Of a stretch of DNA of 64,000 nt, positions 12,015-18,527 are shown in pieces. Source of the stretch: Clostridiales bacterium (GTDB taxonomy: Bacteria > Bacillota > Clostridia > Saccharofermentanales > Saccharofermentanaceae); contig JAFWPB010000058.1 in assembly GCA_017545245.1 (NCBI GenBank), forward strand, positions 1 through 64,000. The letters are read 5' to 3'. Every line of letters starts with the position of its first letter. Positions within the stretch are counted from its first letter, which is position 1. Below the pieces are notes generated by a model that searched no databases, had not been told where the DNA came from, and worked only from the letters and a program-made list of their open reading frames with translations. A program made the translations under genes and the position numbers.

Positions 12015-12536
12015 TCAGTTTTTCTTCGGAGCCAGGAACATGACCATGTTTCTGCCCTCAATCTTGGCCGGCTTATCCACCTGACCGAACTCTGCACAAA
12101 GCTGTGCAAACTTCTCCATTACAGCATAACCTTGATTCTGGTATGCCATCTCACGTCCACGGAACTTCACGAGTACCTTGACCCGGTTTCCGTCTTTCAG
12201 GAAACGACATGCGTTCTTCGTCTTGACATTCAGATCGTGATCTTCTGTCGTCAGCTTCATGCCGATTTCCTTCGTCTCGATCACTTTCTGATTCTTACGG
12301 GCTTCCTTCTCTCTTTTAGCCTGTTCGAACAAATACTTGCCGTAGTCCATAACCTTGCATACAGGGTTATCCGGGTTATTTGCGATCAGGACAAGATCAA
12401 GTCCACTCAACTCTGCGGCTTTTCTAGCCTGCTCGATCGGAACGATACCGACCATTGTACCATCTGCATCAATCAATCGAACCTTCTCAAAACGAATCTC
12501 TTCGTTGATGGGCTGCCCATTAGTCTGTCTAGCGAT
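12015..12536 (-). CDS. infC: Translation initiation factor IF-3, starting with a rare AUC codon
   Basis: IF-3 binds the 30S subunit, prevents premature 50S joining and proofreads the start codon. The conserved N-terminus INEEIR..KVRLID lies upstream of any ATG, GTG or TTG. Reading back in frame gives IARQTNGQPINEEIRFEKVRLI, beginning at an ATC at 12536 with GGAGG 9 bases upstream. A TGA in frame at 12552-12554 closes the frame, and the intervening codons are AGG AGG TGT GTT CTT ATC. The initiator must therefore be ATC, or the protein would have to start at TTG 12476 and lose 20 conserved residues. This gives 173 residues, the normal IF-3 length. AUU or AUC starts are known for infC in other bacteria and allow IF-3 to limit its own synthesis. 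Confidence 0.95.
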   Translation of the reverse strand: MARQTNGQPINEEIRFEKVRLIDADGTMVGIVPIEQARKAAELSGLDLVLIANNPDNPVCKVMDYGKYLFEQAKREKEARKNQKVIETKEIGMKLTTEDHDLNVKTKNACRFLKDGNRVKVLVKFRGREMAYQNQGYAVMEKFAQLCAEFGQVDKPAKIEGRNMVMFLAPKKN

Positions 12537-12557
12537 AAGAACACACCTCCTTCAATA

Positions 12558-12591
12558 CAAAAACGGAGCGAAACTTTCCGCTTCACTCCGT
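12558..12591 (-). terminator. Intrinsic terminator/attenuator in the infC leader
   Basis: On the minus strand a stem forms between ACGGAGTGAA (12582-12591) and TTTCGCTCCGT (12563-12573), with one G-U pair, followed by a run of five to six U. It lies 22-55 bases upstream of the infC start codon and downstream of the promoter, so it can stop transcription before the operon. Confidence 0.75.
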
Positions 12592-12657
12592 CATAACTTA
12601 CTTTCGATAAGCCACATTCGTGAACCTCTTCGCATAACTTGAGGTGAGAAGCGGAAA
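12563..12657 (-). promoter_or_regulatory. Antiterminator/terminator leader of the infC-rpmI-rplT operon (L20-leader-like)
   Basis: The minus-strand segment TTTCCGCTTC (12648-12657) is perfectly complementary over 10 bases to GAAGCGGAAA (12575-12584), which spans one arm and the loop of the terminator. The two pairings exclude each other, as expected of an attenuation switch. Leaders ahead of infC in Firmicutes are often controlled by L20 or L4. The placement supports such a role, but which protein binds here is not shown by the sequence. Confidence 0.65.
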
Positions 12658-12680
12658 CTCCTACTTGCTGTAACTCTGAT

Positions 12681-12709
12681 ATGATAACCATGAAAAGAAC
12701 TGTTGTCAA
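12681..12709 (-). promoter_or_regulatory. Sigma-70 type promoter of the infC operon
   Basis: The minus strand has a perfect -35 TTGACA (12704-12709), a 17-base spacer and -10 TATCAT (12681-12686). Transcription would start near 12674, giving a leader of about 140 bases before the AUC start. Confidence 0.8.
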
Positions 12710-12751: not shown

Positions 12752-12760
12752 TGATATAAT
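12752..12760 (+). promoter_or_regulatory. Extended -10 promoter for the aminotransferase gene
   Basis: TGATATAAT on the plus strand is a perfect extended -10, 45 bases upstream of the ATG at 12805 and divergent from the infC promoter. No good -35 is visible. Confidence 0.55.
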
Positions 12761-12804
12761 TGTTTTCATCGTTTAGATTATACCCGAAAGAAGGAAGTGA
12801 TACC

Positions 12805-13977
12805 ATGATTTCAAAAGAGATCGAAGCAAAAATATCCGGCGGTTCCCTGATCCGTAAGATGTTTGATGAAGGCACACGCCTCAAGAAGATATATGGTGAG
12901 GATAAGGTATTCGATTTTTCCATCGGAAACCCTGACCTGGAACCTCCAAAGGAAGTAAAAGACGCCATCATCGAGCTGGCAAATGCAGATATCCCGGGCA
13001 TGCATGGTTACATGGCCAATGCCGGTTATCCGGAAACAAGAAAAGCCATCGCAGATAAACTTTCCAAGGAGAGCGGCATGGAAATCGGAATTGATTCCCT
13101 TTGCATGACCTGCGGCGCTGCTTCCGGCATGAACAATATCCTGCGTGCGATCATGGAACCAGACGACGAGATCATCCTTCTCGCTCCTTTCTTCCTTGAA
13201 TACCTCAACTACATCAGCAACGTAAAGGGCAAGCCGGTCATCGTCAATACTGATCCGGATACCTTCCTTCCTGTTATGGATGAGATCGAAAAGGCAATCA
13301 CACCGAAAACAAAGGCGATCATCATCAATTCCCCGAACAACCCGAGCGGCGCGATCTATCCGAAGGAAGTGCTCTGTGAACTGAATGCGCTTCTTAAGAA
13401 ACAGGATCACGTCATTCATGTGATTTCGGACGAACCATATATCGATCTGGCTTATGACGGCATGACGGTGCCTTCTTCCCTGACCTGCTTCGACAACCTG
13501 ATCATCTGCTTTTCCTGGAGTAAATCCCTTTCTCTTCCTGGCGAGCGTATCGGTTACACATGTGTCAGCCCGAAGCATGAGGATTTTGAGATCCTGACAC
13601 AGGCTCTCGTTCTCTGCAACCGTATCCTCGGTGCCGTAAACGCTCCGGCGCTCATGCAGCGGGTCGTAGCTAAGGCCCTGAACGCGAAAGTGGATGTACC
13701 CAATTACGAAAGAAGAAGAAATCTGCTTTATAACATCATCACCGAAGCCGGATTCACCTGCACCAAGCCGCAGGGCGCGCTGTATCTCTTCATGAAGACA
13801 CCGATCGAGGATACTGCATTCTGTGAAGTATGTGCGAAATATAACGTACTTGTCGTTCCGGGTTCCGCTTTCAAGCGTGAAGGATATGTAAGACTTGCTT
13901 TCTGCGTCTCTGAAAAGACGATCCTGGGATCGAAAGAAGCATTTGAATCTATTGCAAAAGAACTTGGCCTGAAATAA
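12805..13977 (+). CDS. Pyridoxal-phosphate aminotransferase, class I/II (aspartate-aminotransferase-like)
   Basis: The start MISKEIEAKISGG at 12805 has GGAAG 7 bases upstream; 390 residues follow. Fold-type I features are clear: the ligand loop CGAASGMNNILRA, INSPNNPSGAIYP, SDEPYIDLAY with the PLP-binding Asp, and SWSKSLSLPGERIGY with the Schiff-base Lys. The C-terminal Arg that binds the substrate carboxylate is probably in EGYVRLAFC. Sub-family members in Clostridia are usually annotated only as PLP-dependent aminotransferases, and the amino acid used is uncertain. The gene is convergent with thiN (2-base gap) and not part of an operon here. Confidence 0.92.
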   Translation: MISKEIEAKISGGSLIRKMFDEGTRLKKIYGEDKVFDFSIGNPDLEPPKEVKDAIIELANADIPGMHGYMANAGYPETRKAIADKLSKESGMEIGIDSLCMTCGAASGMNNILRAIMEPDDEIILLAPFFLEYLNYISNVKGKPVIVNTDPDTFLPVMDEIEKAITPKTKAIIINSPNNPSGAIYPKEVLCELNALLKKQDHVIHVISDEPYIDLAYDGMTVPSSLTCFDNLIICFSWSKSLSLPGERIGYTCVSPKHEDFEILTQALVLCNRILGAVNAPALMQRVVAKALNAKVDVPNYERRRNLLYNIITEAGFTCTKPQGALYLFMKTPIEDTAFCEVCAKYNVLVVPGSAFKREGYVRLAFCVSEKTILGSKEAFESIAKELGLK

Positions 13978-15294: not shown

Positions 15295-16182
15295 CTATTT
15301 TCCGTATCTTTTTGACTTCTCAATCATTATATCTAAAAATTCACGATAGCGAGACAATCTTCCATCGCTGATCGTGCTCTCTTCTATTTTACATCCGAGT
15401 TCGCCTTTATGGCGACAATCCATAAAACGGCACTTTCCGGAGATGGCAAGAAGTTCCGGGTACCCGCCGATCACATCTTCCAGTTCAAGACCGACCTCAC
15501 CGATATCCAGCGAAGAAAAGCCGGGCGTGTCGATCAGAAATCCGCTCCGATACGGGAAAAGCTCTACATGACGTGTCGTATGCTTTCCTCGTTTCAAACG
15601 GTCACTGATGTCACCTACTTCTATATGATCCATTCCGGTAAGCTTGTGGCACAGCGTGGATTTGCCAACGCCGGACTGCCCTGCGATCCCGACGGTCCTC
15701 TCGTGGAAGATCTCTTCGATCACCTCATCAGGCAAGGTCTCTTCTTTGGAAGAAGTAAGGATACGGATACCGGCACTTTTATACTCCTCTTCCAGGACTT
15801 CGACCTTTTCAGGGTCCAGATCAGTCTTGGTAAAGAGAATGATCGGCTCAATATCCAGTTTCTTACAGATAATAATCAGCTTATCCAGAAGCTTCAGATC
15901 CGGATCCGGATCTACAACAGAGATAGCAATAACAAGAACATCGATATTCGCCACGCTCGGACGGATCAGGATATTCTTTCTCGGCATGATCTCCGAAATC
16001 GTATACGGGATATCCGGATCACCCGATTTCTCGATCTGACAGTAATCGCCAACCGTTGGCTTCATATTCCGCTTACGGAAGACGCCACGAGGCTTGGCCA
16101 ATACTTCTTCTTTATCAGGAAGAAGTATGGTGTACTCACCTCCCACGCCTTTTATGATCCTGCACTCACCGTTATGCGTCAT
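15295..16182 (-). CDS. rsgA: Small ribosomal subunit biogenesis GTPase RsgA
   Basis: RsgA is a circularly permuted GTPase that checks late 30S assembly. The order in the 295 residues is an OB fold (about 1-65), the G4 motif TKTD, then the P-loop GQSGVGKST and DTPGFSS. A C-terminal zinc motif (C..DC.H..E.GC, around residues 250-265) closes the protein, as expected for the family. The start ATG shares one base with the stop of prkC (TGATG). In Bacillus this protein is phosphorylated by PrkC, whose gene is immediately upstream here too. Confidence 0.96.
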   Translation of the reverse strand: MTHNGECRIIKGVGGEYTILLPDKEEVLAKPRGVFRKRNMKPTVGDYCQIEKSGDPDIPYTISEIMPRKNILIRPSVANIDVLVIAISVVDPDPDLKLLDKLIIICKKLDIEPIILFTKTDLDPEKVEVLEEEYKSAGIRILTSSKEETLPDEVIEEIFHERTVGIAGQSGVGKSTLCHKLTGMDHIEVGDISDRLKRGKHTTRHVELFPYRSGFLIDTPGFSSLDIGEVGLELEDVIGGYPELLAISGKCRFMDCRHKGELGCKIEESTISDGRLSRYREFLDIMIEKSKRYGK

Positions 16183-18527
16183 CAGTTCGCCCCTTCAGTG
16201 TCGATGAAGCCCTCTATCTCCGGCTCACTCGGCTTTGGTGGATCAGGCTGCTTACCCGGGTCATCGGACGGCTTCGTATCCGAAGGTTCCGTAGGCTTGG
16301 GCTCTGGTGTTGGAGTCGGCGCGGATGTCGGTTCCGGAGTCGGGGTCGGTGCAGCTGTCGGTTCCGGCGTAGGTGTCGGTGTAGCAGTCGGCTCCGGTGT
16401 AGGAGTCGGTGTAGCTGTCGGTTCCGGCGTTGGTGTTGCCGTCGCTGCCGGTGTAGGTGTTGGAGTCGGCGTGGCTGTTGCCGCCGGCGTCGGCGTTGGA
16501 GACGGCGTCGGTGTCGGTGTCGCCTCGTTCATCGCAAATACGGCTGTCAGAAGAATATCTTCTCCTGGCATCAGGAATGTATATGTCTCGGTATAACCGA
16601 CACTGGTTCCGTAAATATCTACCCATGCAACGAAGTGGAAGCCCATGCTCGGAACTGCCGAGATCGTTACCGGCGTATTAACAGGGAAAAGACCTTCACC
16701 GGAAACAGTACCATCGCCCTGTGCCTGAAGCATCAGGTTATAACCGACAACTTCCGGAGTCGGAGTCGGCGTACCACCACGATTCTTATCTTCCTGTGTA
16801 CCGACAAATACCTTGATCGCTGATTTTCTCTGCACGACTGTACTCGGAGACGGGTCTGTCAACATGACGAACAGCTGTGCCTCCGGCAGATTCTGGGCAG
16901 CAAGTTCAGGACTGATCTCGATAGTTCCCAGTACCAGATCCGCCTTATCGATCTCTTCTCTGGCCTTGTCCAGAGACATGCCGATGATGGACGGAACAGC
17001 GATTTCCGTCGACTTCTGGCTGAAGATGATCAAGATATCTCCACCAGGATTGACTGGTGTTCCAGCTTCCGGTTCAGTACGGATGACGATACCTTCTTCT
17101 TTTTCGTTATTGATTTCGGGTCGTATCGATACGTTATACCCCTCATTCCTGAGTTTGGTAAACGCCTCCGAATACTTCATTCCGGCAAAATCCGGAAGAT
17201 TTACGGCATCCGGCGCCTTACTTACGGTTAACTCAAGTATATTGACCGTACTGTTATTCCGTATCTCCATACCTTCCTGGATATTCTGCTTGATGACCAC
17301 ACCCGGAGCATAATCCGTACGGACTTCATATCCGACGATCTTATATGCCGTAAAGTGGTTATCTTCAAAGTTTTTCTGCACTTCGGCTATGGTCTTACCG
17401 ACATAATCCTGCACGACAAAGACACTGTTCGTCTCGCGCTGGACAGTCTTCTTCAAAGTATCAGCAACCAGGACAGTGATTCCGATCAGGAAACCGAATA
17501 TCAGAAGTACGATGGCAATAACGATCAGATTATCCTTCAAACGGGAATGACGTCTTGTCTTGATCGATCTTTCGATATCCTTCAGTTTTCCATAGTTCGG
17601 CTCTTGTCTGATGGAAGCCGCATTGTTGCTGGCCACCGCCTCTTTTGGAGCATCCTGGCTTGGCTCTACGATACCGTAGGAACCATTCGGATCGACCATC
17701 AAGGCATCGAGTTCGCTGACCATTTCACGGATCGACTTATAACGAAGCTTCGGATCCTTCTGCATCGCCTTCTGGATGATCGCATCGAGACCTTGCGGAA
17801 CACCCGGTACGAACGAAGAAGCATAAGGTACCGGTTCCTGCAGATGCTTCACTGCTATGGAAACAGATGTTTCTCCGTCAAAAGGAACGCGGCCTGTTAC
17901 CATTTCAAAGAGTGTTACGCCCAGAGAATAGATATCGGAACTCGGACTGACTACACCGCCTCTTGCCTGTTCCGGAGAAAAATAATGTACTGAACCCAGT
18001 GCGCCTCCGGAAGTCAATGTGATCGTATGATTCGTCGAAGCATGCGCAATACCAAAGTCTGTAACCTTAGCGATACGGTCACGTGTGATCAGAATATTAT
18101 GCGGCTTGATGTCACGATGCACGATACCGTTCTGATGCGCAGTATCGAGCGCCATACCTACCTGGATCACGATCGGAACGGCTACCTTCCAGTCCAGATG
18201 ACCATTCTGAAGGACAAGTTCTTTTACAGTAATACCTTCGACGTATTCCTGAACCATATAGCGGATGCTGCCTTCCTGGCCGACACCGAACACATGCACG
18301 ATGTTGGCATGCGAAAGCGACGAAGCTGCTTTCGCCTCTGTATCGAAACGCTTGATGAATTCCACATTGTTTGCAAATTCCGGCTTCAAGATTTTGATGG
18401 CAACATTCATACCGGACGAAAGGTCCGTTGCCAGATAAACATCGGCCATACCGCCGCTGCCGATCAACTTAATGACCCTGTATCTTCCACCTAAAATCAT
18501 GCCCTCCGGGCTCATTGTCGTACTCAT
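16182..18527 (-). CDS. prkC: Ser/Thr protein kinase with PASTA domains (PrkC/Stk1) plus an extra repeat domain and Pro-Thr tail
   Basis: The product has 781 residues. The kinase domain is residues 1-275, with GSGGMADV, Lys45, HRD at 137-139 and DFG at 157-159, all intact. A transmembrane helix spans about 333-356. Three PASTA domains lie at about 370-436, 440-505 and 507-578; these normally bind peptidoglycan fragments or lipid II. Unlike the usual PrkC, a further domain at about 595-665 follows. Its [27 protein letters not shown] and LTAVF fit the bacterial repeat (Flg_new/InlB B-repeat-like) pattern. Residues about 669-781 are a low-complexity Thr-Pro/Ala-Pro/Glu-Pro tail. The start overlaps the stop of the phosphatase gene by 4 bases (ATGA). 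The kinase and phosphatase therefore form a co-translated reversible switch for envelope and growth control. Confidence 0.96.

Follow-up and report, generated by a model that had tools for sequence, protein, structure and literature searches.

Organization of the infC leader locus

The window, by which we mean the whole stretch of 64,000 nucleotides that was analyzed, carries an infC-rpmI-rplT cluster on its minus strand and a divergent aminotransferase gene upstream of it. A leader lies between the two, and the leader, its promoter and its terminator are all on the minus strand. Since the aminotransferase gene is read away from the leader, the leader terminator does not mark that gene's 3′ end. 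The features of the locus are as follows.

12760-13977, plus strand: PLP-dependent aminotransferase gene, pointing away from the leader
12681-12709, minus strand: sigma-70 type promoter TTGACA-17-TATCAT, with TTGACA from 12709 and TATCAT ending at 12681
12554-12672, minus strand: whole leader, 119 nt, aligned to L20_leader (RF00558) model positions 1-127
12647-12662, minus strand: helix H1, part of the putative L20 site, from folding
12648-12657, minus strand: antiterminator 5′ segment TTTCCGCTTC, overlapping the H1 loop and 3′ arm
12624-12645, minus strand: helix H2, likewise part of the putative L20 site, with outer pairs 12645-12624, 12644-12625, 12643-12626 and 12642-12627
12593-12615, minus strand: helix H3, spacer hairpin, from folding; sequence variable in the alignment
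12575-12584, minus strand: antiterminator 3′ segment GAAGCGGAAA, top of the terminator 5′ arm plus loop
12559-12592, minus strand: intrinsic terminator H4 with U tract, from folding and pattern search
12546-12552, minus strand: infC Shine-Dalgarno sequence AAGGAGG
12015-12536, minus strand: infC (IF3), TIGR00168 equivalog, 218.9 bits
11792-11989, minus strand: rpmI (L35), TIGR00001
11396-11749, minus strand: rplT (L20), the proposed effector gene, TIGR01032, 171.3 bits

The reading frame and the AAGGAGG sequence indicate that infC starts at an AUC codon (12536-12534), the same start as in relatives. Across 100 infC leaders of the family Saccharofermentanaceae, this one included, a broad Shine-Dalgarno-like pattern is present in every case and the start codon is AUC in 94 and AUA in 6. 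Published accounts give an ATT start for infC of B. subtilis (PMC6097659) and an AUA start for that of S. aureus (PMC13009471), and E. coli infC is described as regulated by IF3 (PMC10931766). Because AUC is a non-AUG start of the kind disfavoured by IF3, translational self-control of infC by IF3 is likely to form a separate second layer of regulation here, by analogy with E. coli.

Two repeat regions were seen elsewhere in the window. At positions 1-234 a 24-base unit is repeated in tandem up to the window start, with 9.8 copies and 87% matches. Degenerate tandem repeats with periods of 18-60 occupy 16312-16520, near the 5′ side of an rsgA-like ORF (15295-16182, minus strand, named by eye), and on the plus strand these repeats contain a long GVGVG-rich ORF.

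Promoter

The promoter matches the consensus at 11 of 12 positions, and transcription would start near 12674-12672. Shuffles of the 1.7-kb region yield 2.4 promoter-like and 1.4 terminator-like sites compared with two of each in the real region, so that consensus matches alone prove little. Its recurrence among relatives confirms the promoter that the original prediction had named: TTGAC-N16-19-TANNNT lies just upstream in 99 of the 100 infC leaders of the family, with a mean of 0.54 per 100 in shuffled sequences (200 rounds). The sole exception (L006) is on a contig that starts 18 bases upstream.

Match to the L20 leader model

A scan of the window against Rfam at default settings reported nothing. 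The L20_leader covariance search that had been proposed for this locus, run with permissive filters on the leader and its flanks (281 bases in all), returned a full-length RF00558 match at 12672-12554 (model positions 1 to 127, not truncated; 37.7 bits, E 3.7e-6), under the gathering score of 58.7. This is the only RF00558 match at E <= 0.001 in the leader's own genome (E 1.0e-5), and the consensus of the model has the same order of elements as the leader: H1 and H2, then a spacer, then a U-tailed hairpin. In relatives, matches that precede genes other than infC score as high as 38.1 bits; the score alone is therefore no proof, and the surroundings decide. Among the control genomes RF00558 matches were found in Thermotoga maritima, B. 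subtilis, Lactococcus lactis and, in one run, Bacteroides ihuae, with two control genomes exceeding the cut-off.

Distribution in the family and order

RF00558 matches at E <= 0.001 were present in 104 of 115 genomes of the family, none over the cut-off. We fetched 131 matches: the best one from each of these 104 genomes, plus 27 of the 30 secondary ones (those of G050, G068 and G076, at 29.5-29.8 bits, were left out). infC lies in line downstream of 100 of the 131, one per genome and thus in 100 of the 115 genomes, and 31 matches are without infC; these counts assess downstream infC alone. Fifteen family genomes have no infC-linked match, and no infC at all was found in 12 of them, probably because the assemblies are incomplete. 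A clear L20-type leader ahead of infC in G043 (L214, 1250-1500) went unreported by the search, so genuine members escape the RF00558 model even at E <= 0.001. The leader ahead of infC is interrupted by a contig end in G055, and G084 has infC with merely 31 nt of sequence upstream.

The two-stem motif CTC[AG]CCT-N7-35-A[AG]AGG[TC], taken from the putative L20 site, occurs in 100/100 infC-linked family matches, a count that is partly built in because the motif was derived from that set, and in 0/31 of the other fetched matches, a count that this derivation leaves unaffected. We also identified the same-genus genome G093 as Candidatus Scatonaster coprocaballi: 1,325 bases of locus L163 recur unchanged in JAGHVD010000070.1, whose organism NCBI taxonomy places in Saccharofermentanaceae, Saccharofermentanales.

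The order sample comprised 148 genomes, 75 of them from the leader's own family, and overlaps the 115-genome family sample. Matches at E <= 0.001 were found in 134 of the 148, and since none of the 148 exceeds the Rfam cut-off, that cut-off omits these leaders. Outside the family, 61 of 73 genomes have a match; we fetched the best match for 60 of these 61 (G115 was left out) and found infC following 58 of them. The family-derived motif is present in 56 of these 58, a fraction likewise unaffected by how the motif was obtained, and in 0/2 of the matches without infC. Both exceptions (L228 and L256) are infC-linked and carry close variants.

The 31 family matches without infC were considered as further L20 targets and rejected, none having the L20-site motif; we treat them as U-rich spacers and terminators. 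Seven of them (L171, L180, L186, L194, L195, L200 and L210; 29.5-38.1 bits) precede a rimP-like ORF; in these a promoter-like element and a U-tailed hairpin accompany an A/T-rich stretch, and the L20 site is missing. Profile searches with two of the seven ORFs gave RimP for all best families (E 4.3e-30 and 2.3e-36, below curated cut-offs), and scans of two of the loci (L186 and L194) returned no other Rfam families. This element is possibly an undescribed rimP leader. Another six of the 31 start in the apparent end of rpsO, ahead of an NAD-synthetase-like ORF (both named by eye).

Conservation of the putative L20 site

We compared 41 leaders with mutual identity below 90%. The four outer pairs of H2 are present in 41/41 leaders and three of the four are invariant. 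Two adjacent G-C pairs, C12644-G12625 and C12643-G12626, are invariant in all 41, and both A residues of the AA dimer at 12630-12629 are invariant in a 40-row alignment that leaves out L015, whose cut-off point was misplaced. Two elements are described as common to L20 leaders and 23S rRNA, an AA dimer and two G-C pairs in direct succession (PMC7247131), and by our assignment from the sequence A12630-A12629 would be that same dimer. H1 is paired in 88.3% of cells over the 41 leaders, and two of its pairs show two-sided changes. When the H1-H2 partners are slid by 1-3 columns, no more than 56.8% of cells pair, compared with 93.1% in the proper register. In the number of pair types H1-H2 does not exceed shuffles (190/500 reach it).

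Terminator and antiterminator

The original prediction rested on mutually exclusive stems ahead of infC, built from a 10-base perfect pairing and a U-tailed terminator at 12558-12591. The pairing holds exactly: TTTCCGCTTC (12657-12648) is complementary to GAAGCGGAAA (12584-12575) over 10 bp. When the 119-nt leader was shuffled with its dinucleotides kept, 34 of 20,000 sequences had two complementary 10-mers separated by 30 bases or more. The terminator is also present, its boundaries differing by no more than a base or two: H4 has a 13-pair stem from 12592 to 12562, with T12563-12559 at the stem's 3′ end. Including the terminator, the leader folds with a z-score of -3.03 (2/200 shuffles equal it); truncated ahead of the terminator loop, it is no more stable than its shuffles (z 0.13). 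From each non-redundant leader we folded the last T run's first two T (runs of at least five T) together with the 42 bases that precede them; a terminator hairpin formed in 41/41, at -9.4 to -20.6 kcal/mol.

A fixed-column alignment of the terminator in this species' register failed, with H4 pairs in 279 of 527 cells. Because the terminator register differs between genera, we used an alignment-free duplex test, in which each terminator 5′ arm was paired in silico with an H1 segment. Over the 41 leaders the mean is -14.25 kcal/mol for an arm with its own H1 segment and -10.85 kcal/mol for swapped arms, and the own-arm mean was reached in 0/10,000 permutations and 0/200 H1 shuffles. Fixing the terminator at the last T run gave -14.04 versus -10.76 kcal/mol, again with 0/10,000 permutations. 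In this second test weak antiterminators were found in L027 (-6.8), L177 (-7.3), L009 (-7.8) and L121 (-8.0 kcal/mol); L115 reached -8.3 kcal/mol, its -2.9 in the first test having come from the wrong hairpin.

In the aligned antiterminator columns 77.5% of cells pair and 22.5% are unpaired. The covariation score is 0.207 versus 0.152 in shuffles (0/500 reach it), and all slid registers are lower in both pairing and covariation score. The counts of two-sided-change pairs and of pair types are not above shuffles (463/500 and 52/500 reach them). Had the paired segments not been conserved in relatives, this would have spoken against the mutually exclusive stems; the comparison showed the opposite, and co-variation together with this conservation supports the stems.

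Predicted energies favor different folds at different lengths of the window's RNA. For the nascent RNA of 98 nt the antiterminator is predicted at -26.5 kcal/mol versus -19.3 for the L20-site fold, and for the complete leader the L20 site plus terminator is predicted at -37.6 versus -34.4 kcal/mol for the antiterminator. Over the 41 leaders, nascent folds have the antiterminator (six or more pairs) in 37 and H1 instead in 1, and full-length folds have the antiterminator in 27 and H1 instead in 11. As the modeled nascent folds favor the antiterminator, antitermination looks like the default during synthesis, with read-through the outcome, and termination would follow once the L20 site is held.

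A proposed L20-responsive attenuator and its alternatives

We propose that the leader is a transcription attenuator through which L20 turns off the operon that encodes it, infC-rpmI-rplT, and give this reading a probability of about 0.9. During synthesis the H1 loop and 3′ arm would pair with the future terminator 5′ arm, forming the antiterminator and allowing read-through into infC. Free L20, in excess over new 23S rRNA, would bind the H1-H2 junction. H1 would then stay folded and the antiterminator partner would be withdrawn, so that the terminator could form and RNA polymerase would leave before infC. The leader anatomy, its conservation, the co-variation and the predicted energetics were established in this analysis, and from the B. 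subtilis system we infer L20 as the ligand, the direction of control and termination in vivo.

The effector had been left between L20 and others when the sequence alone was considered; the RF00558 match, the position ahead of the operon and the features of the L20 site now favor L20, which appears the most likely effector. The same two folds could instead answer to L35, IF3 or a small molecule, given that ligand binding is invisible in sequence and that L35 and IF3 are also encoded in the operon, but we consider this unlikely in view of the full-length RF00558 match, the known L20-leader elements that are conserved here (as described in PMC7247131) and the B. subtilis leader of the same architecture, which is reported to answer to L20 (PMC6097659). 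Selection of the fold by a ribosome stalled on a short leader ORF is very improbable. The window's leader does contain a 14-codon ORF, MRRGSRMWLIESKL, but it begins inside H2 without a purine-rich Shine-Dalgarno sequence, and among 14 leaders compared the place, frame and length of such ORFs differ, with L003 and L007 having no ORF of at least six codons. We rejected the leader-peptide reading on this comparison. The chance is equally slight that H4 is a fixed partial terminator that sets a basal level, the antiterminator being incidental. This species' full-length leader is predicted to prefer the terminator even without ligand, which would suit such an element, but a passive terminator would need neither the co-varying antiterminator arms (0/10,000 permutations) nor a putative L20 site that hardly varies.

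The leader is thus a real, conserved and otherwise ordinary L20-type attenuator below the catalogue threshold, with a probable mechanism already known from B. subtilis. We lean, by a small measure, toward regarding these leaders as a divergent, order-wide L20-leader subtype under the Rfam threshold, with a terminator register in this genus shifted such that terminator and antiterminator have just part of an arm in common, and with dual control by L20 at transcription and by IF3 through the AUC or AUA start. Among the open-licence papers searched, we found no description of this leader in Saccharofermentanales. With these leaders, a ribosomal feedback switch already studied in depth reaches into an order of Clostridia from gut and rumen, most of them uncultured, and the 41 non-redundant leaders could seed a better RF00558 model.

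Comparison with known L20 systems

The closest counterpart is the B. subtilis infC leader, which by one account may take up either of two folds, the terminator being promoted when L20 binds (PMC10931766). The operon, an H1-H2 junction that is the binding site in B. subtilis and would be so here, an optional H3, the terminator H4, the two alternative folds and a non-AUG infC start are alike in both (PMC6097659, PMC10931766). The start is AUC here and ATT in B. subtilis. In contrast to B. subtilis, the genus studied here has a shifted terminator register, with the top of the arm plus the loop as the antiterminator partner. Relative to RF00558, the present leader scores 37.7 bits where the cut-off is 58.7 and has 119 nt where the model has 127 positions.

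The E. coli rpmI operator is described as a site at which L20 represses rpmI-rplT, while IF3 regulates infC in the same cluster (PMC10931766), in likeness to the two layers considered here. Unlike the present leader, it is presented in that source as exerting translational control via a pseudoknot and a hairpin, with infC outside L20 control (PMC10931766). A deltaproteobacterial L20 leader candidate has both G-C pairs and the AA dimer in common with the present leader, but as described it differs in structural scaffold, lineage and gene context (PMC7247131).
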